From: Gymnopus androsaceus JB14
Taxonomy: Eukaryota; Basidiomycota; Agaricomycetes; Agaricales; Omphalotaceae
Length of the DNA stretch: 64,000 nt
Assembly (NCBI GenBank): GCA_009733575.1
Contig: ML769535.1
Span: forward strand, 1 to 64,000
Direction of reading: 5' to 3'
Shown: positions 4,352-63,529 of the stretch, piece after piece
Position numbering within the stretch: position 1 is the first letter of the stretch
Layout: each line of letters opens with the position of its first letter
Position numbers and translations under genes: made by a program
Notes under the pieces: generated by a model
The model's database searches: none
The model's input: the letters and a program-made list of their open reading frames with translations, nothing else
What the model was told of the DNA's origin: nothing

Positions 4352-4637
4352 CATCAGCAAAACCTGGGTGAACTGGATAGCACTGAATAGTGCTATCCAG
4401 CACTCATAGCACTCATAGCACCCATAGCAAGGTCCATCTATCCAGAGCTATGGGCTGCTATGGGCTGCTATAGAGCATGACATCTGTCAACAGGCAATAT
4501 AATTTGGGAAGTCCATAGTAACTCATAGCTACCCATAGCTACCCATAGCAATTCATAGCAGTTCATAGTTCTATGGCTGCTATGGCTTGCTATGGCTTGC
4601 TATAATAGCTATGGCAATTATCCAGGTTTTGCTGATG
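4352..4637. mobile_element. Short TIR element of the CATCAGCAAAACCTG family, CATAGC subgroup
   Basis: The left end CATCAGCAAAACCTGG and the right end CCAGGTTTTGCTGATG are exact inverted repeats. They are flanked by the 2-bp duplication AA (4350-4351 and 4638-4639). The 286-bp interior is almost entirely clusters of the word CATAGC(A/T) and its complement GCTATG, with orientation switching between clusters and GCTATG words facing the right end. It has no coding capacity, so it must be moved in trans. Confidence 0.85.
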
Positions 4638-5053
4638 AATCCTGGTCTGAATCTGCATTGGTTGGTGCTTTGCAGGAATCCTGCTTCTTCAATTCTCTCA
4701 TTCCTCATCTATCATGTTTGTAGTGTAAGTTATATGAATATATGCAGCTTCTTTCCTGAATCCAAAAAATATTATTACATGGCAGATATCAAGCCTACAT
4801 CTCTGCAAGATCCATAGCTAAGCCAGGTAGATGTGATATTTGTGAAATGTTGCTTGAGTCTTTGAAGCAAGAACTGTGCATTTTTAGCTTTAGCAAAAAA
4901 AAAAAAAAAAGTAGTCCATTTCAGTCCTCCTGTCCGACATCATCTGGCTACCATCAAGAATGGATCATGGCTGTCAGTGCTGAAGGCAAGCCATCCTTCC
5001 TACAGGAGGACAGATCCAACTTGAACTTGGTGAGTTTTTGAAGAAGGAAGTTG
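4638..5053. other. Unassigned spacer
   Basis: No convincing gene. It holds a 16-base A run near 4895-4910 and short open frames without recognisable motifs. Confidence 0.3.
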
Positions 5054-5765
5054 TCACTTCCATGAGCCAATGTAGCTTAAATCAAATCCAAGGTCAAGGA
5101 TTAGGAGCAACTTGGTTGTGGGGAAGAGGGATAGCATTTTGGTCAAGCCAATGTAGCTTGCCTCCTGAAGCCCTGTCATGCACATGCTCTGCAGTACCAG
5201 AGACAACAACTCAAACATGGAACAATGCTGTAAGCCAGCCATGTCTGTATAAATATCTTGGGCCATCTGACAAAGAGTTAGATGTTCAAGGAAGGGTGTA
5301 ATAATACAGGATATGATGTTCACATCACTAGTATTAGAAGTTGCATCATGGCAAGAGACACAAAGTGGCTTGAGTGCAGGTAGAAATATGGAAATCTAGG
5401 TGGTGAAATCAATGGCACCAGTTTCAAGGTGGACAAGGTTTTTGAGGATCCAACTGCATCCTTGTTGAAGTTGTTCCACCAAGGTGGTTGTAAATAGTTC
5501 ATGAGGTCAACTGCTCCACAGGAAGCGCCAGCTGTTTGAATGTGGAGTCATGGAAAAGGCATTCCGTAACTCTAAACTTTTGCAACTTGGGTGTTCCTAA
5601 GAACACCTCTAGTTTATGGGAAGTTGGATTCATATACATCTGGAGAAATACCTCTTCCAGTAAAGGCAAAGAAGGTGGCAGACAGAAAATGGGAAGAAAT
5701 AACAATGAGTGCCTGGACAGCTTGAGCAAGTGAATCTGGTGGCCGTAATCCATTATTTCCTCCAA
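5054..5765 (-). pseudogene. Degraded F-box/LRR-type gene relic
   Basis: On the minus strand three consecutive open stretches in different frames read like the leucine-rich region of basidiomycete F-box proteins (motifs such as TPKLQKFRVTECLF and ITPFLEHLTLCQ, with regular L-x-x-L spacing). They need at least two frame changes and one stop (near 5398) to be joined. No F-box is visible. The assignment is by pattern only; it could be another LRR-like family. Confidence 0.35.
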
Positions 5766-5781
5766 GATTCAGGCTATTGCA

Positions 5782-5989
5782 GTGCATACAGAAGGACTTG
5801 GGTCCCAGGACCCCTGCCTAGCCAATAACCAAGAGACAGCCTGTATTGCCAAAAAGCCACTCTTTGACCAATACATTGACTTCTGCTCTAAACAGATGGT
5901 ATTCAATATCAAGCACCCTGCTATCATTGCAACCTTACGCTCAATGTTTTCTGGGCTGGCATCTCCAGGTTAAGTCTTGCAGAGTGCGT
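5782..5989 (+). pseudogene. 5' part of a DUF6532-like gene, interrupted by a copia insertion
   Basis: The plus-strand frame carries the motif FNIKHPAIIATLRSMF, which resembles the conserved H-P-x-I-I motif of Agaricomycete DUF6532 proteins (function unknown). A possible intron (gttaagtcttgcag, about 5969-5982) would join it to a frame that continues across the copia insertion point into the sequence at 12045. The gene was therefore split by the retrotransposon. Confidence 0.5.
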
Positions 5990-5994
5990 TTTCC

Positions 5995-6356
5995 TATTAG
6001 AGTTATATTCCTAAATAGGAAGTAGCAGCAGTAAGTCCACACAGGACTTAGTAGTACGATCACACAGATCAATAGGGGACGATGGTGGTATTACAGGGTA
6101 TGGTACTAGGCTTTATATACAGTCCTATGTATAAACAATATATCGGGCAAGTGGCTACTGCGTGAATACTTGTGGCTACTATGCATATGGTAAAGTGGGT
6201 ACTGCAAGAGAGCGAGTGGATACGGCGAGAGACTGAGTGGAGTCTGCAAGACAATAACAGTGGAGTGCATGGGATGGTGATACAAACAAGTGGAGAGTAC
6301 GAGAAAGCGTTCCATGTATAGTTCGATAAGATATATTTACCTTTGATATTCCAACA
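5995..6356 (-). repeat. 3' LTR of the copia element
   Basis: It matches 11678-12039 with only scattered substitutions. Read on the minus strand it starts TGTTGGAATATC and ends AACTCTAATA, so the terminal dinucleotides are TG...TA rather than TG...CA. Confidence 0.92.
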
Positions 6357-6363
6357 CTCCCCT

Positions 6364-8996
6364 TCAAACCTTTGCTAATCCCATGGATGCTGTGAAGTGT
6401 TTGGCTTTCATTGAAGGTAAGGCTTTGGTGAAGATGTCTGCTGTCATGTTTTCGGTAGGGCAGTAAGTAAGTAAGACGAACTTTACCTTCCTCAATGACA
6501 TAGCGGATGAAGTGGTATCGGATATTGATGTGTTTGGTCCTGGCATGAAAATGATCATCCTTTGCCAATGCGATGGCAGACTGATTGTCTGACATGATAG
6601 GGATTGCATGAGTAATTGGGCCAAAGATTTCCGATAAAAGATTCCTAAGCCAGATCGCTTCCTTTGCTGCATGGGTCAAAGCAATATACTCGGCTTCCGT
6701 GGTGGATAAAGAAATGGTATCCTGTCATTTCGACAACCAAGATACTGCTCCGCCATTCAACATAAAAATGTACCCGGAAATAGCATGTCAATCCTCTTGG
6801 GACATACCATCCGCATCTGTATAGCCTTGGACTGTCTCCTGGTTGCTTGTACTGAGCCAAAAGTCTCGGGTGTATTTGAGATAAGCGTAGACATGGCGTA
6901 CACCATTCCAATGAGTGATGCCGGGGTTTTGTGAAAAGCGAGCAAGGATAGAGACTGCATACGTGATGTCAGGTCTCGTAGTGACGGATAAGTACTGGAG
7001 AGCACCAAGGGCCTCTCTGTAGGTTTTGTTGTGCATAAAAGCAATATCCTTGACCGTTTTGGGTAATTGGTCTTTGGTGAGGTGAATGTGGGGATCGAAG
7101 GGAATAGAGAGTGGCTTTATATCTGAGAATCCATAGCAAGAGAGTATGGCGTCAATGTATGACCACTGGGATAAGTGAATCGTCCTGTTATGGAGAGATC
7201 TTCAGATCTCGATCCCAAGTAGCCAATGGATTTCTCTGGAATCAACAACTTTGATTATAGCCCCAATATCTTTCTTCAGTTTCTCCATGATGGCCAGGGT
7301 TTTGGTAACCAATGTCATGTTGTCAACATGTATGAAAATGATGGTGAAGGAATTAGTGCAATAGAAAACAGCATGATCAAAATCAGACTGTTTGAACCCC
7401 AGTTGGGTCATGATTTCCCTGAATCACATGTACCATTGTCAACTGGCTTGTTTAAGTCCATAAAGTGCGAGTTTAAGCCGTAAGGTTTGACCTGGTTTTA
7501 CCCCTATATCAATGCCTGGAGGTGCCTTCATAAAAATACACTCGTTATCATCCAATTTCCCGTAAAGGTAAGCAGATTTCACATCCATTTGGTGAATAAT
7601 CATGCTCTTCTCTGCTCCAATGCTGAGTATAGCACAGGCTGATGCAAGTTTCATGACAGATGCAAAGGTTTCATCTGGGTAGTCAACGTCTGGGATCTGA
7701 TTAAATCCACGTACAACAAGACGAGCTTGGTGTCCTGTAATGTGACCTCGTTCATCCTTCTTGGTCCGATAGACCCATTTGGATGTGAGAATATTTGCAT
7801 CTGGAGGTGGAGTGACAATTGTATAGGTTCCACGCTCCTGGAGTCTGGAGATTTTGTCCTTCATGGCATTGTACCATTTGGAGCTGTCAGGTTGTTGCAT
7901 AGCTTCTGCAACAGATAAAGGATCAGATTCGATCTCTGATGTTACCTGACCTAGAGATGCAGTAAGATGTTGCAACTCATCACTTCCTTCTCCAAGTCCT
8001 TCAATGACGTCCCTGATCTTCTTGGTGGGTCATCTGACTCGTTTCCCAGATACTTCATCTGGTGCAATTGGTTCGGCAATTTCTTCTGGAACTGGTATGA
8101 CAGGCTGTTCTGAGTCCTGACTCGGTGACCGATGTTTCTAAATTTCCCAAATTTCCATCCTCCCCTTCAACGGGTTGGATCTGCCTGTCAGAGAAAACTA
8201 CGTTCCTCTCCGTTGTGACAGTGTGACATGTTGGCCAGTACATGTAGTGACCATTCGATTCGGGTTCGAGTCCTATCCAGCATCCTTCCTGGGCCTGTGG
8301 TTCCAATTTGCTGGGTTCCTTTTCTCGTTTAACATAAACAATACTGCCAAAGATGCGAAGATTAGTAATGTCCGGTTTAATACCAAACCGTTTCTCGTAT
8401 GGAGTGGCCATTCAAATGGCTTTCTTCGGCATTCTATTCCAAACATATACCGCATATTTCATCATGAATCCCCAAAGCCATTTCGGGAGTCCGGATGAGA
8501 TCAAAAGACTTTGAACTGCATTAAGCAATGTTCAATGTGCACATTCCGCTATACCATTGTGTTCCGGGGTGTCATGTACCATGAGACATCGTTGTGTCCC
8601 AATACGTTCTAGATATGCTGTGAATTCATTACTGAGAAATTCTCCCCCTCGATCAGAGTGGAGAACTTTGACAGTTGTGCCGTATTGTGTTTGGAGACCT
8701 GTTTGGAGAACCACGTACTGTGCAATGACTCGTCCTTTGACTTCATTTGGGGTTCTTCCAACCAATCAGTTGCTTCGTCAACTAGAGTCAGCGTGTAAGT
8801 GCAGTGGTTTACCGTCCTGACTTGTGCTGGACCCCACATGTCCATGTGGAAAATGTCTCCAAACTTCTCTGCACGGGGAGATGATCACACCTGAGCGATA
8901 GGATACCTGGATGCTTTCCCAAGCATGCAAGCGCGGCATTCTGGTTTGTCCATTTGTTTCGGATCCAATCCGATTCCATGAACCTGGTTGTCTCAA
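6364..8996 (-). pseudogene. Copia pol region: integrase, reverse transcriptase and RNase H, broken
   Basis: Reading down the minus strand, the integrase zinc-binding region (H...C-x-x-C, CRACMLGKASR) lies near 8910-8990 and the integrase core (MDMWGPAQV, then LVDEATDW) near 8760-8845. Reverse transcriptase (KWVYRTKKDERG, MDVKSAYLYGKL, LKLALYGLKQAS) spans 7975-7439 and continues to 7202. RNase H spans about 7044-6364 and ends in a DIFTKALP motif. The catalytic YVDD box reads HVDN, and the frames are split by several stops and shifts. The products cannot be active. Confidence 0.9.
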
Positions 8997-11305
8997 AACA
9001 TATGCTTCATGTAAGCATAGTTGAGGTGACCTAAGATGCAGTGTGCCTTGTAAAGAGATACCAATCTGCCAATCTTAGTCGAATAGGCGTGTTCCCGTGA
9101 TGGGATCTGGTATAGTCCGTTAGTCTTTGGGATAACTCCCACAAGTTTCCCCTGGTGATCTCTGATCATCATCTTTCCATTTGCAGTATGGATGGCATAA
9201 CCATCATCATCAAGTTTTCCCAGTGATACGAGTGTGTTGGGAGTGTCTGGACATAACAGGGTGTGATGGAGCTTTAGCGTTTGGACTTCTTGTCCATATG
9301 TGGGGAGATCGAGATGGAGTGTGCTGGAGATGTTTGCTGTGAAGGTTTCCGTGTTAGCAGCCTGAATGACTCGTGTTGGAATCTCCCTTTGATTCCTGAG
9401 TTCATCGGTGAGTGGCACCATGTGAGTAGAGCATCTGGAGTCAAAAAGAATTGCTCTGTAACTGTGGGCTGTGGCATAAGTGTCGACGTATACTTCTTCC
9501 TCCTCTTCATTGCTCTGGTAGTTGAGCTTTGATGAGGTGATGAGAGTAAGAGGTGCAGAAGTTTCAACTTTAATGTCTTGCACCGCATCACAGCTGTATT
9601 TCTGACATCTGCGATTGCTCGGCGATGAAAGAGCTAATTCAAATTTATCAGCTATTTCGGAAAAATTGAAAACAAGATTCCCATGCTTAGCAGGAATTTT
9701 GATTGCTGCCCATGATGACTCTGGTACTTCCTCAATCATAGATGAGGATGCCACTTTGTTGTTCTTTGGCCTATCTCTCCAGTTTCCATCCAACTTCTTC
9801 TTCTGCTTCTCCTTAGGAGCTTTCGTTTCCTTGGCCTCGTTGGCCTGACTGCATTTCTCCGATGGACATTGATTTCCAAAGTAACCTTTACCTCCACAGT
9901 TATAACAAACGGAGTCCTGATGACTCGTTGATCCTCCACGGCCTTTGCCTCTGCCTCGGGAATTTCCTCTGAAGGAATTTCCATGGCCTCGGAAACCTCC
10001 TCTTCCCCTGTTACCAGCGTAGTTTGCCGATTCCTTTTTGTGATCATGTGGCATTTGATAGACCATTCCTTCTGCACGGATAGTCGAAATAAGCTCAGCG
10101 GGATTGAGCTTGCTTTTGTTTTTAACGGCAAAAATAGCAAGGGCATTGATTGTAGCTTTGAAGGTGTCGGGGACAGAGGACATAATGGTATTGACAAATA
10201 TATTGTTGTTGATATTGATTCCCCTAGTCGTGAGGTCGTCGTGTATGTTGATCATGTCGTCCAAATGTTTATTGACCTTGGATGGGTCCGTGCATCGCAT
10301 GGTATGAAGTCGCCTTTGTAAAAATGATTCAGTAAGAGCGTTTTTGGAATCATAATCAGCGAGTAAATTTTCCCACAACTGCTTTGTGTTGTTGTAGTGG
10401 CTATACCTGTGGAATATCCCATCCAATAACCTGCCAATGATTGCATTAAGCAAATCACTGTCCTTTCCCCTGTCCTCATCATCAGCTCCTTCCGCATCCG
10501 AAGGTTGCGGATTCCATTCCAGAAATTGTTGGTAGCCAGTAGACCTGGTTGCAAATTCCACTTGAGTTTTCCACATGTCCCAGTTTGATCTGTCTGACTT
10601 TAAGGTTGTAACCTTATCAAAGGCTTTCATTGCTTTAGACATTTCGTTGTTGTTGTCAGAATCAGCAATTAAAGCGCCTGGTGATCCGGGATCTGATGGC
10701 GATGGGGATCTGTGTGGAGAAGGTAGATTTGTATTTGGAAATGGAAGTTGGGATGCTGTTCCCTGTGGAGATGGTTCTATAGGAGTAGGTGGGGTTGGTT
10801 CGCGTTTTGGTGCAGGTGATTGAGATGGAGCAGGAGTATGCTGTTGTGAGGATGATGCAATAGGATGAGCAGCTGGTGCTTCAGTATCTTCTTCTTCATC
10901 GTTGTCTTTGTCATTGGCAATGTGTCGTAGGTGAATTCTGATAATTTCCTCCTGTTCTTTCGCAATGGGTTTCGCAAAATTTGCTAATTTACCTGTCCAA
11001 GGTACGTTGTATCAGTTTAAGCAATGTTGTTTATCACACTGGCTCCACTTTCCAGTGGTTTGGTTTTTGTATCTGTCAACTAATTCATCAATGTCAAAGA
11101 TGTGTGGGTGTCCTTTACAAGGTACAGTGCCGTCTGTGGGAGGTAATGGTCCTTGTCTCTGCTGTGGTGTTACAGCTTTGCTACTCAATGAGCTGGCTTG
11201 TTCCAATGCAATGGAACGTTGTCGAGTTACTGGTGGTGGTGCTTGTTCCGATGCCTTAATCTCCTGTCGAGTTCGTAGGGGTGGTGGAGCTGGCCTGGGT
11301 GGCAT
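8993..11305 (-). pseudogene. Copia gag-protease with N-terminal disordered extension
   Basis: The main open frame (10642-8993, 549 codons) holds a UBN2-type gag, an RG-rich stretch, a CCHC knuckle (CYNCGGKGYFGNQC), an aspartic protease and a pre-integrase start. The protease active site reads DSR instead of DSG, so it is predicted dead. Upstream, the same reading continues to an ATG at 11305 through a proline-rich, low-complexity extension interrupted by one stop near 11011. The extension encodes a GHPHIFDIDELVDRY motif I do not recognise. Confidence 0.85.
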
Positions 11306-12039: not shown

Positions 12040-12044
12040 TTTCC

Positions 12045-15019: not shown

Positions 15020-16479
15020 TACCACTACATATCACCCGAGAAGAAGTGTCTTCTTGCAACTCTTTCCATTAACGCATAAAAAATTCTGAACTCACCCAAC
15101 ATACCAATGTCAGTGAGAGGTTGATCCAATGTGCACTCGCAAACTGGTGCAATACTGGAGATGTGGCTATAATTTCAAGCCAGCATGGGAGACTGAAGGC
15201 TTTGTCATCTCTCAATATGGATGTAAGACTATATAATACTTCTCCATTCAACATTTGTTCACTTTGTTATTGCTAGTATATTAAAGGTCTACTTGAACAA
15301 ACTCCAGACTTGTATCTTGAAGAAATCCAACGGTCACTAGAAGATTCCTGTCAAGTCTTGGTTGCACTGTCTACAATTGCTGCCTTGCTTTGTCATTGGG
15401 GATGGGAGAGGAAAAAGGTACACATTGTAGTATCAGATATGCATTGACCACAACTGACTATTTCTAAGGTTACATGACTGAGTCATGAGCGCGATGAAGA
15501 AGCCCGTATCGCGTATCAGGCTCTTATTGGGGAACATTATCCACCTGAGACATTGGTTTTTGTTGACGAGTCTTCCTGTGATCAGCAGACTGTCCAATGC
15601 AAAATGGCTTGGGCACTGAAGGGTGACAGGGTTTACAGACATAATTTCTTTGTGCATGGTGTATGGTACATTTCTTTTTTGTTTTTGCTCACCATAATAT
15701 ACTGAAATCATCAATTTTTAGGTACTCATCAGCAAAACCTGTATTTTGCATTTTGATTCCCACAGGATTACTTAAATTTCCCAGTGCTCCCAGAGCTCCC
15801 AGCGCTGGCCAGTGCTTGCCAGTGCTGTCAGAAATATAAAATCATATGTTATTTCCAAATAAGGTAATTTTGCGGCCTCTGGGAGCTTCTGGGAGCTCCC
15901 TCCTGCATCGGCTGGACCATCTGAGTGCTGGGACGCTGGAGCGCTGGGAACTCTGGACAGTTCGCTCCAGCACTTCCCACGTCATACAGGTTTTGCTGAT
16001 GCTCTATCCTCCCTGCAATATCACTCAATGGTGTTCTTCATATGGATGTCCTAACTCATTCTTGGAATGGTGAGGAGTTCAGAAACTTCACTGGCAATGT
16101 TATGGACAACATGAACCCATATCCACAGTAAAACTCGGTGTTGGTCATGGATAATGCAAGTACTCACCACGGTGAAGGCTTGAGGGAAATGGTGGATGCA
16201 TGGTATGTCTTCTCACCCTCTGTGTCTATACTTTCTAATATAACTTGTAGGGGAATGCAGCTTGTCTACCTTCCAGCATACTCTCTGGATCTCAACCCAA
16301 TTGAAGAAGGTTTTTTGGCAATGAAGGCTTGGATTTGATGGAACAGGGATTATCTTCTGGGGGAACTTATGGGCGAGGATATGTGCCACCCAATTGCACT
16401 GTTGTGGGAGGCAGTATACAGTACCATGGTCCCTTCATCTATTGAAGGCTGGTTCCATGACTCAGAGTACATTGCTTAG
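15020..16479 (+). pseudogene. Tc1/mariner-type transposase, broken and interrupted by a MITE
   Basis: The N-terminal helix-turn-helix part (about 15290-15415) reads EEIQRSLEDS...LVALSTI. The DDE domain follows: first D in LVFVDESSCD with MAWALKGDRV (about 15560-15640), second D in LVMDNASTHH (about 16142-16170), and E in YSLDLNPIEEGFLAMKAW (about 16280-16335). The frame needs introns near 15225-15285 and 16203-16250. A 275-bp MITE splits it at 15727-16001. Stops are present: a TAA after NPYPQ near 16131 and a TGA after KAWI. Tc1/mariner elements move by a cut-and-paste reaction at TA sites. Its own terminal repeats were not identified. Confidence 0.8.
15727..16001. mobile_element. Short TIR element of the CATCAGCAAAACCTG family, CTCCCAG subgroup
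   Basis: Exact ends CATCAGCAAAACCTGT and ACAGGTTTTGCTGATG, flanked by the duplication CT (15725-15726 and 16002-16003). The 275-bp interior carries CTCCCAGAGCTCCCAGCGCTGGCC-type words on the left and their complements (CTGGGAGCTTCTGGGAGC) on the right. It is nearly identical to the copy at 51832. It lies inside the mariner transposase. Confidence 0.9.
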
Positions 16480-19254: not shown

Positions 19255-21074
19255 CTATCAAGACATTGACGGCTGGCTCAAGCGCTTAGTTATCTCATAG
19301 GAGCTCATAGCAAGCCATAGCATTTCATAGCACTATGGCTGCATCAGCAAAACTGCACATGCATGATCTGTATGAAGGCATGCCAAATACGTCCAATCAT
19401 ACGGATTTGGCTGTGTATGTATAGGGCCCCGAGTGCATATCCATCACGCTCGATTATGCACTGATTATACAGAATTACAGCCCCTTCGCTTGTTTGTTTA
19501 TACCCTCAAATATGCCCAATTATACTTTATACATTCAATACATATGCTAGCACTTTTGGTTGACTTTTAGCCTGAATATGCGTTAATGAAGCAAGAAAAA
19601 AATAATCATTGATAATTTATTCTATTAGTATATGGCAATGACATTGTACAAAAGATAGCTATGTAAAAAGACTACGGAATCAGTGCTGTCCCGTAATGCC
19701 CTCAATGCCTTGTAGCTCCAAACAGAAACATTTGAAACCAAATAAATAATGGATTGGAAAGTCTGGAGATGTATCTGAGTCAGGTCGAGCTTAGAACAGA
19801 CAGACAGTAATAAATACTCACACTGCATCACGCAATGGTCAAGAGACGTGCTTCGACAGTGGAAGGCTTCACTTCAAATCTTCAGCAAGTTGAAAACTTT
19901 GCCATATTAGGTGTCTACTGTTTGGAGAAACCAATATCGCTATTCTTTGTGGTCTTGCACTTCAGTGGCTGGCGGGTTTTCGAAACCTAAGGTATCATGT
20001 TTGAGCAGAGCACTTTGAGAAGAAAAAAGTACACACTGCCATGTCAATTAAGAGCGCCACAAGGGGACTAGGGTCAAAGCGGGAGGACTCAAGGAGAGAA
20101 TGGGGACCAGTGCCAGCACCAGAATGGTACGGGGACAAAAGACCCACTGGGGAGCCATACAGTTAGTTACAGTGAGCACAAATAATGGTAGCAAAAAGAT
20201 TTACTAAGATATGCCCACGCGACCCATTGGTATTGTTTGCTGCTAGCAAAGAGCTCATGCACAGTCGAGAGGCGAGTTCTGGTTTGACAACTCGCAAGGG
20301 TGTTAGAATAAATCCTCCAAGTAAAACTATGCAAAATAAAAAGGATATAAGCTGTGGATAAAAACAGCAAATGAATTCACATACCTGGCATGACATTGGA
20401 GCAAACAGGCTGCAGTAACATTTACATTGAACGTCAACCTCGGAGAAGACATAGAAAGGAAGAATGTACGCACATTAGACTATTCCTATCCATCCCGAGT
20501 CTTTCTCAAGCTTTTGGCCATACAGAAAATCCAAGTTGAACGAATGAAAGAAAAAAATAATAGGACTTGATAAAACGCAAGGAAGTAAGGAAGGGCCGCC
20601 ACTGCCTGGCTTCCAAAAAACACAATCCACGTGAGACTGTACAGTAGCTTGTCGGAGTTTCAAATGACTTGAGTATTCTTGCGAGTTTTCCCTCCAGGCG
20701 GCGGATGCAATGCATCAATGTAAGCTATTGTACAATATTCTAATTTACTCTCGACTCTCCGCATTGAGGCTGAACATGGAGCACACCGCAATGGAATAGC
20801 AACTAACTTGTACCTACATCAACTTATTTACTACTGTAATAAAATGCTCTAATGGTCATATCGTTGTATAACCTGCGTATAAACCGCGTATAAACTGCGT
20901 ATAACAATTATACGGCCAAAGAAATTCCGCTGGGCCGTGATCGCGTATGATTGTGCATATCAATTACATCAATCTACCGATCATACGCAATACGATCCGG
21001 CGGTTTTGCTGATGTGCTATGGTTTGCTATAGATTGCTATAACTTCTATGACCTTTGCCTAGGTTTTCCTGATG
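19255..21074. mobile_element. Outer, degenerate CATAGC-subgroup element carrying a nested relative
   Basis: On the left, CATAGC words run from about 19296 (ctcatagcaagccatagcatttcatagcac). On the right, gctatggtttgctatagattgctat and the end TAGGTTTTCCTGATG (up to 21074) complete the pattern. The larger element at 19342-21014 splits it. A second partial end (GGTTTTCCTGATG) follows at about 21081-21093. The left terminus is not clearly recognisable, so the start is approximate. Confidence 0.45.
19342..21014. mobile_element. 1.67-kb member of the CATCAGCAAAACCTG family, GCGTATAA subgroup
   Basis: The ends CATCAGCAAAACTGC and GCGGTTTTGCTGATG are flanked by the 2-bp duplication TG (19340-19341 and 21015-21016). 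Subterminal words of the type CATACG/TTATAC lie on the left and GCGTATAA (three in a row near 20875-20905) on the right. This is the longest family member in the window and the only one with room for a gene. Several short minus-strand open stretches (20163-20720) could be exons, but I recognise nothing in them. Confidence 0.75.
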
Positions 21075-43026: not shown

Positions 43027-43057
43027 GCATCAGTGCCAATTTACATAATATATTATC

Positions 43058-43735: not shown

Positions 43736-43759
43736 GTTTTTATTTTATTTTTTATTTCC

Positions 43760-44185: not shown

Positions 44186-44522
44186 TGTGGATCTCCATTT
44201 GGAAATTTTAGATGCTCTTATTTTTAGGTGCTCTTTTTTTAAAGAAAAAAACATCATCCAAACTATTGGAGTGCAATCCACCCAATTGTTACTGCATGAA
44301 GTGAGTGCTCTTGCAAGATTTATATTCCTATCTTATTGCAATTTGCAAAAATAATGGGATTTCGGAAAAATAAAACAAAATAAAACATACAATAATGACG
44401 TAGGCATGAGAGCTTTGACAAAACCTTTCACGCTTCCCACCAACAGTGCAAATCGCGTCCCAAACTGCTCTTGGTTTCTAAGACTGTTTCTTGCTCTTGA
44501 TTGTCTTATCTTGCACCATACC

Positions 44523-45927: not shown

Positions 45928-46092
45928 AGTTGTGTTCCATCATAGCTATTGTTCATTGCATATTCCTTTGCTTTTCATTGTACATTTTGCTGTCATATGT
46001 TGTACAAATGCTCATGGTTCCATTATCCATACGGTTCTGTATTCTGTAAGGTTCAACTTGGAGCTACATACAAGGTATACTTGGCTTTATAA

Positions 46093-47221: not shown

Positions 47222-47536
47222 CCTTTGTTTTTATTTATTTTTATTTCCGAAATGCCATTATTTTTGCAAATCGCAATAATATAAAGAGGATTCATAAAAA
47301 TTCAGAGGTGGATTGACCCAAAATCAAATGTATAATGCTCTGTGTGCAGTAGTACTCTTGACTTTGCCTCAATATAGGTGTTCATTATTTAGCACTCATC
47401 AGTGCTAATTTACATGATATATTCCCATGGTAAGCACTCTTCTTTTCTTTTGAACATCATCCAAACTATTGCAGTGTAATCCACCCAATTGTCACCACAA
47501 GAAGTTGGTGTTGTTGTGACTTTCATACTCCCATCT
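47222..47536 (-). repeat. Dispersed repeat R-A, copy 3 (uninterrupted target of the solo LTR)
   Basis: Matches copies 1 and 2 closely. The CATCT at 47532-47536 followed by taacatgaacagg is the pre-insertion form of the solo-LTR site. Confidence 0.85.
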
Positions 47537-47647
47537 TAACATGAACAGGATTCAAAAACAATTGAGATGGATTAACCAAATAAGGAATGTGCAATGCTCT
47601 ATGCAAAGTAGTACTCTTGACTTTGCCTTGATATAAGACTTTATTAC

Positions 47648-48071
47648 TAGTGTGTGGCTCAGGTTGGGTTGTGTGCCCAAAACATCAACCCAACCTGGAC
47701 CCAAGGCTATACCCATACCTGGTTTGTTGGGTACCAATTTCTCCAGGTTGGGTTGGGTTATGGTTTCTCCCGGACACCCAGAATCTCATATGGAAATCCA
47801 AACCAATAATGACATCATAACCAAAAAAAAAAAAAAAAAACTCAACTTTTTTGTGATATGACATCATAATTGAGGGTTCAGGTATTCTTGTATCAAAAAA
47901 AAACAGCACAGTACTACAAATGTACTACAGCTATGAGATCAATGTGCAAAAATATTCTTGACCCTGGATGGATCTGGGTATATTGCCGGGTCTTGGGTCT
48001 GCAGAGCTGGACCTGACCCGATCCGGAAATTCAGAAACCCAGCTTACCCAGCATACCCAAGCCACACACTA
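47648..48071. mobile_element. Short TIR element X, copy 2
   Basis: The same ends as copy 1 (TAGTGTGTGGCTCAGG and AAGCCACACACTA). It has an 18-base A run at about 47824-47841 that copy 1 lacks. Internal words are the same. Confidence 0.65.
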
Positions 48072-50277: not shown

Positions 50278-50408
50278 TATCAGAAAACCTGGGTGTTCGC
50301 CATAGCAAGGTCCTTGATATAGATCAGTTGCTGTACAGCTCTGTACAGAACTGTGCAGAGCTGCACAGAGGGGGACCTTGCTATGGGATCACCCAGGTTT
50401 TGCTGATG
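50278..50408. mobile_element. Short TIR element of the CATCAGCAAAACCTG family, CTGTACAG subgroup
   Basis: Left end TATCAGAAAACCTGGG (eroded) and right end CCCAGGTTTTGCTGATG, with the duplication AA (50276-50277 and 50409-50410). 131 bp. The interior carries CATAGCAAGG near the left end, its complement near the right end, and palindromic CTGTACAG words between. Confidence 0.8.
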
Positions 50409-51578: not shown

Positions 51579-52380
51579 ATGGCCTCTTGTCATTTACCAC
51601 TTCTAAGTTCTGACCCCCCACAGCTGCTGGTATTGACCATTATCAACTATCCAATGCAATCTCTCATTGACATTCTCATTCATTATCTGAAATCTGAACC
51701 CTGGTGGTCTTCCCAACAGACTGTACAGCATGACGCGCTCTTTGCATTGCCTTTAACCAAGCTCCAACTTGTGGTACCATCTACCCACCATGTGTCTAAA
51801 GAGTCTGCAATTGACTCTATCTTATATACTACATCAGCAAAACCTGTATTTTGTATTTTAATTCCCACAGCAATACTTAAAATTCCCAGCGCTCCCAGAG
51901 CTCCCAGCACTGGCCAGTGCTTGCCAGTGCTGTCAGAAATATAAAATCATACATTATTTCCAAATAAGGTAATTTTGCGGCCTCTGGGAGCTTCTGGGAG
52001 CCTCCTCCTGCATTGGCCGGACCATCTGAGTGCTGGGACGCTGAAGCGCTGGGAACTCTGGACAGTTTGCTCAAGCACTGCCCACGTCATACAGGTTTTG
52101 CTGATGTATCCTTTCCAATCACTTGCATTATATTGCAGCAGCTGATGCTATCAAAACACATTTTGGTGCAAACATTGCACTCAAATTTCACCTCTCACTT
52201 CCCCCCTGGTCAACCTGTCCATACCTCAGCACATGCATTGTGTTCTACACATTTTATTTCTACATTTTTGGCTGCACAACCCCACAGTGATATTAATTTT
52301 ATGATGGAAAAGCTTCTATATACACACATCAAACAGATTGTCAGTGTATATCCGAGTCTGCCTAGGAAAAGCTCCCCATG
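51579..52380 (+). pseudogene. Unidentified coding sequence interrupted by a MITE
   Basis: An open frame beginning at an ATG at 51579 runs into the MITE at 51832. If the MITE and one TA copy are removed, the frame continues past the site for about 60 more codons (SNHLHYIAAADAIKTHF... onward). This suggests a real gene before insertion. Motifs such as PSTHHVSKES are not recognised. Function unknown. Confidence 0.35.
51832..52106. mobile_element. Short TIR element of the CATCAGCAAAACCTG family, CTCCCAG subgroup, second copy
   Basis: Same 275-bp length as the copy at 15727 and nearly identical to it. Ends CATCAGCAAAACCTGT and ACAGGTTTTGCTGATG; duplication TA (51830-51831 and 52107-52108). Non-coding. 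Confidence 0.92.
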
Positions 52381-52945: not shown

Positions 52946-55845
52946 CTACAAGCTCATAAAAAACTCTAGTTCCTCTGCAAGACTACACACAGCATTAACA
53001 TTGTGAACATCAATCCAGCTTCTTGCAGTAAAATCAAAGAGATTTTCAAGGGAGATGGACAATTGTGAAGGAAATGTAAGAGAATAGATGTCTGCATCAT
53101 CATCATCATCAGCCATTGCCTCCATGTTGGAAGTAATCTCCTGGAATTCATCCTCAACTTCTGTGTCATTTATACCAATGTCTGAGCTGGTGGCAGTAGT
53201 ATGGCTGTCTGTGGGTGCTTCAGGTGATTCTGAGGACAGTGATATTATTGGTGCCATAGACTTGGAAGCCTCCTGCATCTTTGCTAGCCGCTCCTCTCTG
53301 GCAAGTCCAAACTCTTGCTTCACCCTCTTTGCTAGATGTTCATCCCAAACATGCATCTTTATCTCAGCAAGTAATGTGAGGGTTTTCGTGCCCAATCTGT
53401 TGCGAAGCTTGGTGAGAGTGTTGCCAAAAATGCTGAACAGATGTTCACATGAAGCTGAATTTGCACATATAGAAAAAATATGCAATGCTAGCCTGACAAG
53501 CGGTTCTGGAGTAGAACTGACTAGTCCATTCCAAAACTCAGTAGGGTCAGGACTAGTATTCTAGAAACATATGCAGTGAGTACAAGTTGAAGTTGTTATT
53601 TCATAGTGATATACACATTCTCTTGAGCCATCCTATTAATAACAGCCTGGAACTGAGGAGCACCACTGAATGGTCCCGTCTCAGTATAATAATCATTCAA
53701 GTTCCGAAAAATTAAAGTTGAACTATAGTCCTCATTGCCCCTGGTAAAGAATTGGGCATAAAGGCGGGTGAAGAGTGTGAGGACACCAGCTCTATTGAAA
53801 TAGTGAAGACTTTGGCTGAAAGGTGACTCCATGAATGGATTCAATAGGACAGCTGCAATAAGAACCTCCTGATCACATTTCTTCCACTGTGATTCAAGGC
53901 TATTCAGGACAGCAGTGCGGATGTAATTTTCAACTGGGTCATGCATGTTGTTGAAATGGTGATACAAGACTCCAAATGTAAGGAGCACTTCATCAAGCCT
54001 ACAAAATGCACTTTGTATGATGTTTGCAGCAATAGCAAGAGGTTCAAGATGATTTTTGATTCTATATAGATTGAAATCATCAGCTACCATGCATTGTGTA
54101 TGGTGTATACATACCTGACAAGTGCAAGCCAAAAATCATGCTTTTCAATCAATTTAATCATTGCTGCCGCCTTTTCCTTTGATTTTTTGTCACCAGTGAT
54201 AATTTGACTTTCAGAGAGCATCTGATCTCTTGTGATTGTAAATTCCAAAGTTGCCTGCATTTCCAAAAGGCGGCGAAAAGCCAAGTAATGACTTGTCCAC
54301 CTTGTCAAGACTGCACGGATGACTGTAACCACAGGCACATTGGCAGAAACCTGTGCATCCTGGATTAATGCAAGCACATATGTTTTGCTTTGGATCCAAG
54401 TTATCAGCTCAGTTGCTTGTTTACTGAACTTCATAAAACCTTTGTCAACTTTGAAGTAATCACCAACTATAATGTTTATCTAGTATGTATACGTTAATTG
54501 AGATTGCAACATATAAGTTTAACAAAGTTACATACCTGGTGGGCAAAGCAGTCAGGTGCTACTAGTGAAGGTTGTTGCTGAACTAAAAGTTTCCATGCCT
54601 TTCTTGATTCTCCAGATGCATCAGCCGTAAAAGCTACAACATTAACATTCCATACGGTTTCTAGCTCTCTTATTACCTCAAGCATCAACTTCAGGAGGTT
54701 GTGCTGTCTTCTGCTCCTTTGAGGCATCATGTACACATACCCTCCGGACCTAAAACTTATAAGTCCTTTCTATGGTGTTCTTAAAAAATCAAAAATACCT
54801 TTCTGTTTGCTGTTATCATGAAAGCAATCAAATGATGATGATTCAATCCAGACCACCCATCACATTGAGCTGTAACATTAGCACTATTTGCTTGAGCAGC
54901 AAGCTGAGCATGTTCTCGGAAAGACTGAGCCAATTTTGGCAGAAGGTGATTTGTCAAGACTTTCCGAGTGGGAATTTTTGCATAAGGCATAAACTCCTGG
55001 ATCAGAGCACGAAACTCTGGATTCTCAACCCAGGAGAGAGCAAACCCAGCAGAAGCAGTGAGCCAGGTAATCCGCTCCTCAAACTGAGCTTGCTGTGCTG
55101 CATTCCACTGTGGAGCGCTGTGATGGGAACTTGTTTGGGAACGCTTTCATGAAATACTAGCATGGGGATCCGCCAGTGGCACTGCAAGATCTGAGCTTGC
55201 ACCAAGTGATGATACTGAATCAGATAGTGCAAGACTTGCAAAGCTAAGTGCAGGTGATGGCAGTTCAAATGAACCAGGATTATGAGATTGCATCCCCATG
55301 AGCAGCATGGGAGGCTGTGATTGTGGAAAATATGGGGATGGACCTCCAGCTACAGGCATGGAGTGCTGAATAGTTGGCATTGGAGGTCCTGTCTGTCCTT
55401 GTTGTACTTTACTGTTAGCCTTTTCTGTATCTGCGCATTGCTTCACCAACAGTGGCACATTCCAACAGGTGTGTAAATGAGTATTCATTGTAGAACCCCA
55501 GGCTTGTATCACTACTGGTGTATTAAACACTGGAAGAACATGAGTGTCAGTGAGCAGAAAAATTGTAATGATACTGACACTGCCGGATGATCATCTCTTT
55601 ATCATGGACAGATTGAATCAGTCCAGATACAAGCTGTTGGAAGCATAAATACAAGTGCAGAAGATAATGCATTTCCATACTTTTTGAGCATGTTCTGCTT
55701 TCTGAGCTTCAACAAGATGCGGGAAGCAATATTGACAAATGATTTTTGGTTTTCCATTCAATGTTGATGACATAGCAGCAGGGTCCTTGGATGCAAGCCC
55801 AGGATGATCAACAAAATAATCTCGGTACCAGCTGCGTCCAGACAT
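52946..55845 (-). CDS. hAT-superfamily transposase, multi-exon, one premature stop
   Basis: Starting at MSGRSWYRDY (55845), a BED-type zinc-finger-like segment (ICQYCFPHLVEAQKAEH) is followed by a low-complexity linker. The RNase H-like core comes next, with motifs HHHLIAFMITANRKVF, NVVAFTADASGESRKAW and PDCFAHQ. A helical insertion follows (LTRWTSHYLAFRRLLEMQ, then 54132-53596). The C-terminal dimerisation domain reads ASCEHLFSIFGNTLTKLRNR (about 53450), with an acidic tail to 52946. Introns of about 50-70 nt separate the blocks. A TGA near 55148 interrupts the linker. The rest looks preserved, so the copy was lost recently or the stop is bypassed by splicing. hAT enzymes generate 8-bp target duplications, as seen at three elements in this window. 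Confidence 0.85.
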
Positions 55846-55998: not shown

Positions 55999-56130
55999 CA
56001 TCAGCAAAACCTGTATGTACTCCAGAGTGCTCTAGAGCTCTCCAGAGCTCCTGGAGCTTCTGGAGCAGCCAGAGCAAGGGTAGTAGCTCCAGAGTCCTCT
56101 GGAGTCCTCTGGAGCTCTCTAGAGACCACC
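55999..56130. mobile_element. Short TIR element of the CATCAGCAAAACCTG family, CCAGAGC subgroup, right end eroded
   Basis: Left end CATCAGCAAAACCTGT, preceded by TA. The interior is built of CCAGAG/CTCTGGAG words (tctagagctctccagagctcc). The right terminus is not recognisable, so the end is approximate. Confidence 0.55.
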
Positions 56131-57839
56131 CATCATTCAACAATTGTTTGTGCTACAGAGCGCCATTTAGTAATCAAGAGTTCTCACATTGTAACCATGC
56201 AATAATAGTAGCAAATGATATATATATTCATTTTCTGATCATTTTGCACATACAACAGGGTGTAGCCATTACATAAATGTCACCTGCCGAGTCCCCCAAC
56301 ATTTCCCAATGCTTCCAGTTCCCAATTTCTCCCTCCCTGACATCCTCCACCTCTATAACCCTTCAACCTTTCTGATACGTTATTGTAGTTGTACTGTTCT
56401 GATAGTAGCCAGAAGCTAGAATCTGAATCAGCACTGTTTTGTGCGAGGTTCTTTAGTGAGTTGTCAAGGATTCCTCCTTTGAATTAAGCCAAACTTGTTA
56501 AGTTGAAGTAAGACTTTGATTTCACAAAGTAGAACTTGTTAAAAGAAAGGGGGCTTTGCTTTTCAGCAAACAACAAGTTCTAGGAAATGCTTTACAGCAG
56601 GACAACAGGGGTTTTATGGCCAAGTGCCAATATAGGAGAACAATAGGACCAAGTGTCCAAAACAATAGGCCAAGTGCCTTTCAAAACAATGGGACCAAGT
56701 GTCCAAAACAATAAGACCAAGTGTCTTTTCAACCAAACAATGTTCACACTATAATTAGTGGGCCAACTTTTTATTGGAGAATTAAAGACCTGAGAGCGAC
56801 AAACTATCAACTCAAAGTAACTTTCTTCACAAACAGCTACCAGTGGAATTACTGCTGTTGCTTCACTGAAAGAACCCTGCAATTGGTTTTCACAATTGGT
56901 ACAGAAACCTCTGAGATTGTAGCCTTTGTGGGGAATACTAATCTGGGGAAAACACAACACACTGTGATCCCTTATATACCTACTGGGGCCTTTTCTATAA
57001 ATAGTAACTATGTACAGTAATATGGATCAATAAGCGAGATATGAGATGAGTAAGATGCAAAAATAGTGTTTGTAATACAGGGTATATCAGTCATCCAAAG
57101 GATCACTAAGCCTTTCATGTTTACTCAGCTTAAGGGCATTACTAACGTGTATCTGTAAGCACCTTTTGCTGTATCAATAAGCCAACTTGTTTTGTATGAA
57201 TCAGCATGCATATATGCTTACTGATCCATATCTTTATAACCACCAATTTAGATCCAGACTATAATCTAGCTTTAAGCCTAGTATGTCTCATGGACTACAC
57301 CTCCACTTGTGAACATATAAGTTCCCTTGAATATGCAATAACAAAGTCTAGCCTCATCTTGAGTGATCTATAGCAAATTCTAGAATCACCCTCATAGGAC
57401 TTTTAATGAAGTGCAGTGTGCGATATATGCATGTATACCATACACAATGCTACTCCAGTGGGTACAATAGACTGCAACATGCTTTGGCTAACAGTTTGGG
57501 ACTCACTATAGCCCTTAGGGTCCAAAATACAAAGTAGATATGCTTGAAATAGCAAGATCTAGATTATACAGGCCTGGCCATAAAACTGGCGTAATAACGT
57601 AGCTGATAATCAACTTTATCAAATGAATATAAAACTTACAGTGGGAGGAAACTTGAAGAATATTGCACTAAGTTGCAGTGCTGGAAAGAAAAAAGATACA
57701 AGCCCATGTCAAACTTTGAGCTCAACAGAGCTGCCTTTTATACAGATTCCTGAATATATTGACAGTTATATAAAGGCGTTGCAACCGTTGGCAACCCCTT
57801 CCTTTTAGATCACTTAATCAACATTTTCTGACAGTTGTA
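56131..57839. other. Unassigned, repeat-like; no gene seen
   Basis: A short tandem repeat lies at 56610-56745. Otherwise it is AT-rich sequence with only short frames. A TGTTAAGTTGAAG at 56498 could be an LTR start, but no matching end or duplication was found. Confidence 0.3.
56610..56745. repeat. Degenerate tandem repeat, about 20-40 bp unit
   Basis: Repeated words caataggaccaagtgtccaa and caataggccaagtgcc, four to five imperfect copies. Confidence 0.7.
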
Positions 57840-57959
57840 CATCAATTCTGTTAGCTCCCATAGCTTTGGAGCAGCCAGAGCAGTCAGAGCACTCCAGAGC
57901 ACTCCAGAGCATCAATTCAATGCTCTGACTGCTCTGGAAACATACAGGTTTTGCTGATG
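57840..57959. mobile_element. Short TIR element of the CATCAGCAAAACCTG family, CCAGAGC subgroup
   Basis: Right end CAGGTTTTGCTGATG. The left end is eroded (CATCAATTCTGTTAG). The duplication TA occurs at 57838-57839 and 57960-57961. The 120-bp interior has CCAGAGCA words on the left and TGCTCTGG on the right. Confidence 0.7.
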
Positions 57960-58765
57960 TAATCCAATGTCTGAGCAATTCCATTGAGGGTGTATTCAAC
58001 TAACACAAAGTTCACAGAACACCACAAAATATATATTCAGATTGATGCAAGGTAAATGCGATGTGCAAGACTCCGAGCAGTTCCATTTGTCACATGTGTA
58101 GATATATTCAAAATTCAATGAACCAGGATGAATACTGTAGAAACTAAGGATGAAGTCAGAAGAAATGGAATTCCGAATCACACAATACTGCGGGGCACGC
58201 ATAGGCGCTCATGAGTGCCAATCAAGGCCAAAGTCAAGTCATTTTTTGTCCACATTGACCGGCAATGACTAGTCATCAAAAAATGTCTTTGACTTTGGCC
58301 CATTGCCTGCAGTCCATCCAACACTGCCTCATACATGCTATGTACAAATCATTCAAACGGCATCACTGCAAACATCTTCTGTTTTGCAGCTTCTCCTGTT
58401 GCAGGACCTCGGAAACTACTATCAGACCTTGTCTGGTCAAGTGCCCTGAAACACGCTATGATTTTGAGCTCAAGTGTGCTATTTCGGACAGGGACGGTCG
58501 TGTGAATCAAAAAATTTGAAAAATGTTTTTTAAAAAAGCTAAAAATTCCAAAAAAAAATTCCTGAGTGCTGGCTCCTATGGTTTCTACATATGGAAACGA
58601 CCTGAAGTCATCTGGATCATCTATTGTGAAGAGTATAATCTCATGATGATGGGATACCAAAACAAAGGTATCATTTTTGTATGTATTAGACTTCTACTGG
58701 TAAGCTTTTTCTGTCTGCACTTCAACATTGTGCGTCTTCAGCTTTTCTCTCAAAATTTTGGTTCC
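57960..58765. other. Unassigned, with a foldback
   Basis: Apart from the foldback at 58226 only short frames are seen. A plus-strand stretch at 58370-58750 (RYDFELKCAISDRDGRVNQK, then KNSKKKFLSAGSYGFYIWK) reads protein-like over two frames, but I do not recognise it. Confidence 0.3.
58226..58300. repeat. Foldback, about 23-bp arms
   Basis: GGCCAAAGTCAAGTCATTTT at the left and its near-complement ending CTTTGACTTTGGCC at the right, with a loop of about 30 bases. Confidence 0.7.
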
Positions 58766-58955
58766 TAGGATGAAAGTTCCATCCCAGGATGCCTCAGGAT
58801 CTCCCAGGACACCTAGGATGACTAGGATACCTGAGGTGTCCAAAGTTTTACCCTTTTTCCTGGGCCAACTAGGATGCCTCAGGTTGCCTAAGAGGACTAG
58901 GTGACCTTAGATCCTCCTGGGCCCAAAACAGTTTTTGCTGAAGTTCTGGAAACCC
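58766..58955. mobile_element. Probable diverged member of the CATCAGCAAAACCTG family, CTAGGATG subgroup
   Basis: The interior carries repeated (C)CTAGGATG, CAGGATGCC and related words. The right end reads AAAACAGTTTTTGCTGAAG, close to the family terminus. The left end is unclear. Confidence 0.4.
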
Positions 58956-58979
58956 CGTTGCATTGAAATGCTGCCAAGC

Positions 58980-61016: not shown

Positions 61017-61024
61017 ATCATGAT

Positions 61025-61510
61025 TAGTGTTGCCGCGGCTTGGGCGTTAGCCGGCTCGTAGCCGGCTACAACAGCTTCAAGCTGCTTCAAATTCTCAATT
61101 TTTAGTTCGCTCATACCGCAACTTACGAGGGGTTCTTTCGACTGCTCTTAGGTGTAGGAGCATGTCCAAGGTGAAAGCAATGCTCAAATGAACCAAAATT
61201 GCCTTGGGAACGTGCGACACGATGCACAGGCACAACAAAGTTTAATATATTTAATTGATATTTAAATGACATAATTTCTGGTCAACCATATTTTTGCCTC
61301 AATCAGTGTCGTACTGCGTCGTATGACAGCGCAGCAGCATAAGGGAGACTCGAGGATACAGATATATTGGTATAATGCATCTTAGTGCTGTCCTCACGCC
61401 AGTTTGTGAAAACTACCTTGAGCCGGCTGCAAGCTGGCTCATGAGCTGTCCAAGCTGTGAGCCGCAGCTTCTCAAGCCGGCTACCGGCTAGCCGAGCCGC
61501 GGCAACACTA
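61025..61510. mobile_element. Non-autonomous hAT-type element (486 bp)
   Basis: Left end TAGTGTTGCCGCGGCT and right end AGCCGCGGCAACACTA, an exact inverted repeat. The duplication ATCATGAT occurs at 61017-61024 and 61511-61518 (8 bp, typical of hAT). Subterminal words AGCCGGCT occur at both ends. Non-coding. Confidence 0.92.
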
Positions 61511-61518
61511 ATCATGAT

Positions 61519-62802
61519 CGACGAAGGAACACTGAAAGCGAATGGCGGAAAAAAAGTAAGAATTAGAAACGAAACCAAAGGAAGCAAGAGAAAAAGTCCC
61601 GATTGAATCCAACGCAACACTGCCAATACATGGCTCTAGGGCTGTAAAAACACCTTTACCCTCTCGCTCCCGCCCTTAGAGAACCCCCAAATCCGGAACT
61701 GGAAAACAAAACCCGCTATGTAAAACCACAAACCAAAGACACCGTGTTGAAACTCAGCCGAAACTAACCCAACGAAAAAACAAAGAAAGTATTGACAGGT
61801 GAAAACTCAAACAAAGCTCTATAAAACAACAACCACCAAGGACTGGTTGAAATGCAAAAACGCCATGCTCTCAAACATGCGTGCACGGCAAAATTACCCG
61901 AGACACTCCAAACCCTCATGACCCAACCACCGAATGGAAAAGAGCACTGTGAAACTTAAACTTTGCTGAGAATTCAATGTTTGCTGTCAAAATTGAATTA
62001 GTTGGTAAATACATGTTTTGTTGATGACTGATGAATCCTTTCTAGTAATGGAGCCAAGTATGGGTCATTGGGTCAATGAAAAATGCCAGTTGGTACATTT
62101 GTATTGTTTTGCATGTATGTGTATCATACTATATGAATTTAGAACATTTTACTACCAGTTTTTGGAGCATTGGGGAAGCTGGGAATTAATTCGGATGTGA
62201 ATGGAATGGCGAGTTGCGAACCATGGGTTGAAGCACTGATTAGTACCAGGCACCAACTTTTTCAAACTGGGGCTCAATTGGCCCCAGAACTTATCATAAC
62301 GAGGCTCGGTTTAAAAAAAGCGGGCCTGGTTTAAAATTCCCGGAACTAAACTAAGTTTGATAGATTGGGTCACCTGTGTAAATGCTGATAAGGCATATGA
62401 TAGCGCATAAAGGCTGTGATATTACGGCCTCCTGTGGCATCGGCCTTTACACAGGTCCGTGCTTGTGTACTAGGAAGATCTTTTGTTTCCGAGTCGCCTT
62501 TAAGTTGAAACACTGTGGCATACCAGCAACTAGGATGGTTTCTATTTTTAATTTCGCCAATGCTCCATATCTTCCAATATCTCCTTTCTTTGTGACAAGA
62601 AGCAGTGCTGCAATGTGATCTTCAAACACAAACCCCAACACTCCAAGACTAATATGTACACATGAACGGCAAACTTTATTGTCTCCGAGACTTTGGAAAG
62701 CCTATATATCGTGACACGGCTCAATGTGGAGTTAAATTTTCGGACCTCCCCGCCACCTCAGTATAAAGAAGCATCTTCTAAAACGTTCTATGTGCCCTCG
62801 TA
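61519..62802. other. Unassigned intergenic region
   Basis: No gene supported. An eroded family-like terminus (tgttttgttgatg, about 62012-62024) may mark another old element. Confidence 0.3.
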
Positions 62803-62944
62803 CATCAGCAGAACCTGGGTGAATGCTACAGCACCTATAGCAGCTTATAGCAATCCATAGCAGCCACAGCACTGTACAGTGCTGTGGAATGCTATGAGGT
62901 CCTATGAGGTCCTGTAAGATGCTGTAGGTTGACCGTTGCTCGAG
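62803..62944. mobile_element. Short TIR element of the CATCAGCAAAACCTG family, CATAGC subgroup
   Basis: Left end CATCAGCAGAACCTGGG, preceded by TA. The interior carries CATAGCA words on the left and GCTATG on the right. The right end is eroded (aggttgaccgttgctcgag, then TA). Confidence 0.6.
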
Positions 62945-63365
62945 TATTCTGACACCTGTCATTCCCAGCTGATGGATACGGCAACGGGGACCTTGGACGC
63001 TATTTAATCAACGGTTTTGACAAGTTCGACGTCTTTTCCTTCCCCCACTAAGCTCAACTTAACTCAGACTGTAAGTTCTGCTCTCTGGAATTTTTGACTT
63101 GGAGGCTCTAATTGTATATCTGATGACATCTTTTAGTCTCATTGAAGAAGTTTTCGATGACTGGTAGGAGGTTGCAGTTAATTAGTATACAATTTTACGC
63201 CAGTTGTGGGCCTGTTGGATGAGTTGAGTATGTATGTTGTAGTATTAGTAGTGTTTGGAATCGCCAATAAAATGATTTTATAAATATTTCGCTAGTATTT
63301 CGCTCTTGCCAGCCAGGGAATCAATTCAAAATGATAATATATTTGGTATTGAATCAATATTGAAT

Positions 63366-63529
63366 AGAACCCTGATGGCGGCGTTCCCGCGAAGTCCACA
63401 GCGATCCACAGCAACCCATAGCATCCCACAGTTCTGTACAGAGGGGTACCTTGCTATGGGTCCTATGAGTGCTGTGGGTTCTGTACAGAGCTGTACAGCT
63501 CTGTACAGAACACCCAGGTTTTGCTGATG
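63366..63529. mobile_element. Short TIR element of the CATCAGCAAAACCTG family, CTGTACAG subgroup
   Basis: Right end CCCAGGTTTTGCTGATG followed by TA. The interior has CCACAGC/CCATAGC words on the left and tandem CTGTACAG words on the right. The left end is eroded, so the start is approximate. It ends 34 bases before the start codon of the next gene. Confidence 0.65.

Follow-up and report, generated by a model that had tools for sequence, protein, structure and literature searches.

Short elements with a constant terminus and changing subterminal word arrays in Gymnopus androsaceus JB14 appear to be relatives of Plavaka transposons, with DUF6532 as a candidate word reader

A 64-kb window of the Gymnopus androsaceus JB14 genome (the whole stretch of DNA analyzed, contig label C153) carries a family of short elements that share one 15-bp terminus, CATCAGCAAAACCTG, and that differ in the short word repeated just inside it. 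Judged from sequence, these elements appear to be non-autonomous relatives of large Plavaka transposons and match the PlavakaB group. The explanation that we hold somewhat more probable than its rivals taken together is that they are Plavaka derivatives in which a transposase acts on the terminus, a lineage-specific reader (most likely DUF6532) acts on words phased along the helix, and the words change by concerted drift. The source elements would be large Plavaka transposons in which a gene for a RAG1-like transposase and a DUF6532 gene lie near opposite ends. This transposase would recognize and cut the constant terminus and insert with a 2-bp duplication, as knowledge of the family and the predicted fold suggest. 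The 6-8-bp words, in both orientations just inside the terminus, may offer one face of the helix as a further platform for binding, and the fast-changing product of the DUF6532 gene is the likeliest candidate for the lineage-specific protein that reads them. As the preference of this reader drifted, the words of an array would change in concert while terminus and spacing stayed, and the outcome would be many word groups on one terminus, each autonomous lineage being limited in the short elements that it can mobilize. An earlier note on this DNA had proposed a transposase on the terminal inverted repeat together with a second DNA-binding protein. A second gene is indeed present in the large relatives. 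We infer that the words serve as binding sites with DUF6532 as their reader and that cross-mobilization is affected.

The terminus occurs as 10 exact copies in the window, and allowing up to three mismatches yields 27 matches against 3.1 expected (maximum 7 in 100 dinucleotide shuffles). Across the 83.27 Mb of genome searched there are 2775 exact copies (1411 + 1364) and none of the reversed control, so that the common terminus of an element family, as first described, is borne out. The original count of about ten elements was too high, since positions 57840 and 63366 are the right ends of the elements at 55999 and 62803 and the element at 19342 shares only 12 bp. The ten exact ends lie in six elements with 2-bp duplications, to which partial or nested relatives are to be added. 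The main group has six elements that are readable over their full length: 4352-4637, 15727-16001, 50278-50408 (left end decayed), 51832-52106, 55999-57959 and 62803-63529. Target site duplication was assessed in 11 distinct adjacent convergent end pairs (15 bp, up to two mismatches) from the window and the other loci examined, five of them from the window and two from the CCCAGG group. The flanking dinucleotides are identical in 9 of these 11 pairs, compared with 0, 1, 1 and 0 of 11 when the comparison is shifted by -2, -1, +1 and +2 bp, and none of the listed pairs with a 2-bp match also matched at 3 bp; the 2-bp duplications reported earlier thus hold in this sample of 11 pairs. A further case is the large element C201 (duplication GA), which sits within what looks by eye like a copia-like gene: joining the flanks with a single GA leaves the frame open through the site, the gene having other stops.

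Large coding relatives link the family to Plavaka. The genome holds at least 150 Plavaka matches, counted by exon, and three complete elements carry a Plavaka transposase gene and a DUF6532 gene on the opposite strand, namely C646 (6550 bp, TT), C183 (6618 bp, AA) and C201 (6366 bp, GA). Among 52 DUF6532 places (58 matches less six second exons), 22 lie within 8 kb of one of 86 Plavaka matches (of the 150, further exons mostly removed), 17 of them divergently, and one lies near a control set comprising the top 72 of 161 KDZ matches; the chance of this proximity is about 1e-25 if the places are independent. KDZ transposons as the owners of DUF6532 were considered and rejected, as DUF6532 does not cluster with KDZ places and the 7-8-bp duplications described for Kyakuja and Zisupton (PMC12730594) do not fit. 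At three of the eight DUF6532 loci examined (L065-L072) an outward-facing main-group terminus lies 0.6-1.1 kb past the DUF6532 match, where about 0.16 exact termini would be expected by density. These three are C425 (exact terminus, word CTCCAGAG), C85 (exact terminus, CTCCCAG-type word) and C576 (one mismatch, words CATAGC and GTGGAG), to which C104 may be added with a decayed terminus and the words CACAGC and CTGTACAG; in all four the DUF6532 gene lies at that end. A listed divergent Plavaka match is 12.5 kb from DUF6532 in C425, 11.2 kb in C576, 15.5 kb in C85 and 6.0 kb in C104. Long members with a second gene and the same subterminal words, which the earlier note had expected, are therefore found in C85, C425, C576 and C104 with a transposase gene on the same contig, and for C85 the transposase gene lies inside both ends by coordinates. 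C236, C129 and C201 have other terminus types, and at the DUF6532 locus of C59 no terminus was seen. More terminus types are indicated by the DUF6532 loci that end at L065:816 in CATCAGGAAAAGTGG and at L068:2461 in CATCTGGAAAATGC, whose arrays of words are weak; the C129 end also reads GTAGCAAGGTCCC.

The extent of C85 was approached by a genome search with the 22-mer that opens the left end of the 275-bp window element, predicted to lie about 2 kb beyond the Plavaka domain on the plus strand. The 22-mer has 171 occurrences in the genome, one of them at C85:168799(+), 2.0 kb beyond that domain; because it is present at the predicted place past the Plavaka gene, C85 is probably a single 19.2-kb element (168799-188037, by coordinates). 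The 275-bp elements at 15727 and 51832 are apparently deletion derivatives of it. The genome has a single Tet_JBP match, a weak one (E 1e-4, below the curated cut-off) situated within the C425 interval, which accords with the TET-bearing Plavaka reported from Gymnopus confluens (PMC12730594). C622 (L064) had been entertained as an autonomous source of the CATAGC group, because it has a CATAGC end about 0.5 kb past its Plavaka gene and because its last 135 bp match many short elements. It was rejected on finding its own end at L064:5383 (CATCTGAAAAGG), the CATAGC block reading instead as half of a short element that hosts C622, and C622 serves here solely to exemplify Plavaka and DUF6532. At L064:5383-5384 a Plavaka element with CATCTG ends thus seems to be inserted in a CATAGC short element, the other half of which would be off the contig. 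Ends were also sought for the Plavaka loci L059 and L062, and none was clear.

The elements of the window and their closest relatives are as follows (no strand is assigned).

4352-4637: 286-bp non-autonomous element with the word CATAGC and the duplication AA; over 76 bp its array resembles the end of coding element C576 (84% alike).
15727-16001: 275-bp non-autonomous element with the word CTCCCAG/CTGGGA and the duplication CT; its last 107 bp share 94% identity with the DUF6532 end of C85.
51832-52106: second copy of the 275-bp CTCCCAG element; duplication TA; 94% identical to the copy at 15727.
55999-57959: CCAGAG element (~740 bp) split by a ~1.22-kb repeat; duplication TA; its first 94 bp resemble the DUF6532 end of C425 (76% alike).
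56381-57598: unrelated ~1.22-kb multi-copy repeat within the CCAGAG element, outside the family; borders nearly constant across copies.
62803-63529: element, 727 bp, words CTGTACAG and CATAGC/CACAGC; left end CATCAGCAGAACCTG; duplication TA.
50278-50408: 131-bp element with CTGTACAG and CATAGC as its words; the left end has decayed to TATCAGAAAACCTG, and the duplication is AA (by eye).
19342-21014: related element, 1673 bp, word GCGTATAA; only CATCAGCAAAAC (12 bp) in common with the main group; duplication TG.
19255-21074: decayed CATAGC-type element (by eye) that 19342-21014 splits in two; its right end reads CATCAGGAAAACCTA (21060-21074), and no left end is recognizable.
58763-58943: right part of a CCCAGG/CTAGGATG element; 94-98% identical over ~150-160 bp to relatives L031 and L032.

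The subgroups are multi-copy with consistent ends, as had been anticipated. For the 275-bp element all 40 matches scored (of 295 candidates) are full length at 94-100%, itself and the copy at 51832 included. Near full-length copies of 19342-21014 occur on C827, C252 and C41 (93-95%) and on C84 (77%); complete CCCAGG/CTAGGATG relatives of the 58763 fragment occur at L031 (475-879) and L032 (2459-2862); and copies of the CCAGAG element without the insert exist (e.g., C84:56094-56811), the ~1.22-kb repeat itself having about nine near-full copies elsewhere (93-100%). The element at 62803 is 89% identical over 111 bp to coding element C104 and 77% over 136 bp to C576. A coding source of the GCGTATAA and CCCAGG/CTAGGATG groups was not found in the window and the loci examined. 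C163 (859-12574) may hold a heavily interrupted copy of the CCAGAG element, pieces of which stand there in order at distances of up to 11.7 kb and enclose a KDZ match (7435-8133).

The commonest 6-mers of the individual elements are ATAGCA/CATAGC, CTGGGA (CTCCCAG), CCAGAG, CTGTAC, GTATAA, CCACAG and CCCAGG/CCTAGG. When each element was shuffled 200 times, the count of its top 6-mer was reached in 0 shuffles for 4352, 51832, 62803, 50278 and 55999 without its insert, in 1 for 15727 and 19342, and in 11 for the 58766 fragment; apart from that fragment all short elements tested fall between 0 and 6, and the whole of C183 gives 3. Spacing was counted for one top word per element in 22 sequences, taking consecutive copies in the same orientation up to 30 bp apart, with the pairs L031/L032 and L037/L060 related and so not independent. 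Gaps of 9-11 bp make up 47 of 69 and gaps of 18-22 bp another 13, compared with 6.5% and 13.4% in shuffled elements; for elements with the main terminus alone the counts are 27 and 5 of 37. The period of the arrays is one helical turn, largely independent of which word is repeated. The description of the arrays as a word in one direction at the left end and its complement at the right proved too simple, several ends holding forward copies, a short core and then inverted copies. That words differ by subgroup stands insofar as there are several word groups, but these are not all unrelated: CATAGC, CACAGC and CAGAGC lie one position apart.

How one word becomes another can be followed in C576 and C104, whose alignment (1.5 kb, 66% identity) spans both the arrays and the DUF6532 gene. 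Four successive units read CTATGG in C576 and CTGTGG in C104, so that the third base differs in four of four units and the other five word positions in 0 of 20, while positions 7, 8, 9 and 10 differ 2, 4, 1 and 0 times of four. The outer word differs as well (CTGTGGAG in C576, CTGTACAG in C104), and the window element at 62803 contains CTATGG and CTGTGG mixed. For this one pair the alignment supports concerted one-base drift rather than wholesale exchange. The earlier picture of a constant terminus behind which the word is replaced thus keeps its constant end and its differing words, but the main word of this pair has drifted by one base. The base change common to the units is a transition, and it falls in a CA, such as C-to-T pressure of the repeat-induced point mutation type would produce in making CATAGC from CACAGC with no altered specificity; we consider this origin very improbable, the adjacent CA of the same word being unchanged in all four units and the difference between CTGTGGAG and CTGTACAG including a transversion.

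A more serious, though still improbable, alternative is that the arrays are not binding sites at all, their 9-11-bp units growing and homogenizing by slippage or unequal exchange while the words drift passively. Homogenization alone would also be expected to yield a one-base change in four of four units, and the spacers of neighboring units are 58% identical (67/115) against 25% by chance. Against this, the 9-11-bp period recurs in elements whose words differ, and many arrays run in both orientations; between C576 and C104 five positions of the word are unchanged while the spacers have diverged separately. The motif AGCAAGG, which overlaps the end of the word, moreover occurs 365 times in the genome at 12-42 bp inside termini against about 5 expected (31 positions per terminus, equal base frequencies), a count of matches to which a few short-element families contribute much as copies of the same elements.

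The preferred reading, in which a separate protein reads the words, must also be set against one in which the transposase itself reads them, through an N-terminal zinc finger or other module, leaving DUF6532 with another task, for example transcriptional regulation or the countering of silencing. The transposases of C622 and of C646/C183 begin with a finger that looks by eye like C2HC and that differs between these lineages, and some relatives carry the source names C2H2-type or Zn-finger protein. A single zinc finger, however, reads about 3 bp, and words of 6-8 bp exceed that reach; in the pairs compared, moreover, the transposase has diverged less than DUF6532. We regard this alternative as unlikely, but as the strongest of the three. 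The rapidly diversifying companion that had been postulated agrees with the few comparisons possible, companion identity being below that of the transposase; faster divergence of the second gene is supported in these few pairs, for which all stop-to-stop unspliced open reading frames were used, overlapping frames included, so that lengths are inflated. DUF6532 itself offers few leads. A protein search with a 226-aa piece returned nothing useful and a longer query two proteins of the same genome; a Pfam search with single exons led no further, whereas the genome-wide search recovered the family. In the single paper found to mention it, DUF6532 is listed beside Plavaka and KDZ among the domains of two Ganoderma genomes, with no link or function given in that listing (PMC8955403), and in the open-licence literature no paper was found on DUF6532 function or on Plavaka subterminal arrays.

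Several observations weigh against the proposed combination of terminus, phased words and DUF6532 reader. In several coding elements the top word does not clearly stand out from shuffles: that of the whole C646 element is matched by 41 of 200 shuffles, and those of single coding-element ends by 189 and 89 (C646), 28 and 61 (C183), 86 (C236), 15 (C85) and 112 (C201, Plavaka side). Four of the 22 sequences depart from the spacing pattern, L023, C201 and C646 having no gap of up to 30 bp and C85 a single 8-bp gap, and two of the 11 end pairs lack a duplication (L004, TT/AC; L005, TG/CT). In the comparison of C576 with C104, position 8, which lies in the spacer, likewise differs in each of the four units, though in both directions. 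As many as 30 of the 52 DUF6532 places have no listed Plavaka match within 8 kb; the Plavaka-side ends of C425, C576 and C104 are unseen, and their gaps of 6-12.5 kb could conceal nested insertions; and the end at C85:168799 could be a chance short element, with a probability of about 0.2% by density. The faster divergence of the companion may reflect relaxed constraint, in few pairs of unspliced frames mostly from elements that do not bear the words. Structure prediction failed for DUF6532 (predicted local distance difference test score, pLDDT, 37), sequence searches of the PDB found no solved structural relative of it, and the transposase model is that of C622, an element with another terminus.

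Should the interpretation hold, its wider form would be that DUF6532, an orphan mushroom family, is the element-encoded DNA reader of Plavaka, that the arrays and their reader evolve together, a lock and key that drift, and that word turnover sheds parasitic short elements; this we put forward tentatively, as an idea that may well prove wrong. Shedding of parasites would, if real, explain the many word groups behind one terminus in a single genome. The proposal gives an unexplained protein family a role that can be tested, with several versions of one recognition system within a single genome. C576 and C104 are a naturally occurring pair that differs both in the candidate protein and in the aligned sites, through which the joint change of a DNA-binding protein and its repeated sites becomes directly testable, and two short window elements are linked to a probable 19.2-kb source.

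The window has other features besides. Direct repeat blocks at 30218-33223 and 35583-38590 lie 5365-5367 bp apart and are 98-100% identical in four listed 300-nt blocks, and the region 41447-47821 contains a 235-nt repeat three times (41447, 43794, 47282) and a 290-nt repeat spaced 5023 bp. An open frame of 1222 aa at 278-3946 (+) consists mostly of what look by eye like ankyrin-like repeats. On the minus strand we take the frames at 8993-11011, 46487-47230 and 52946-53560 to resemble a copia-type gag/protease, a Tc1/IS630-like transposase and a hAT C-terminus, respectively.

Among known systems the closest is PlavakaB of the Agaricomycotina, described with CATCA..TGATG ends, 2-3-bp duplications and a Plavaka transposase (PMC12730594). 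Here too the termini are of the CATCA..TGATG type, the duplication is 2 bp (9 of 11 adjacent pairs and the reconstructed empty site of C201), and a Plavaka transposase lies between such ends in the complete elements C646 and C183, and between copies of the exact window terminus in C85 by coordinates only. The PlavakaB account differs in that its main text contains no match for 'subterminal' or 'DUF6532' (PMC12730594). With RAG1/Transib the transposase shares the catalytic-core fold in the predicted C622 model, at about 8-11% identity in fold alignments. RAG signals are fixed, whereas here the inner signal turns over. Membership in CACTA/EnSpm, which the earlier note had brought into play, is not borne out, as the family is Plavaka: CACTA/EnSpm elements (TNPA/TNP1) have CACTA ends and a 3-bp duplication, and those described here have CATCAG ends and a 2-bp duplication. 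The likeness in logic to their subterminal arrays does hold, with direct and inverted motif arrays in both, as a resemblance in working and not as membership of that group. Plant CACTA elements have a conserved terminus with direct and inverted subterminal motifs that differ between two soybean subfamilies, and encode a transposase and a dissimilar second protein, the TNPA-like binding proteins sharing little similarity (PMC2613891). In contrast to these, the words here are shorter and spaced by one helical turn, the same 15-bp terminus carries at least four word groups, and the candidate partner is DUF6532. Because plant CACTA already combines a constant terminus with differing motifs, the logic of the arrays was known before, in another family with another word system and another partner gene; new here are the fungal case, the phasing, the concerted drift and DUF6532 as the candidate reader.

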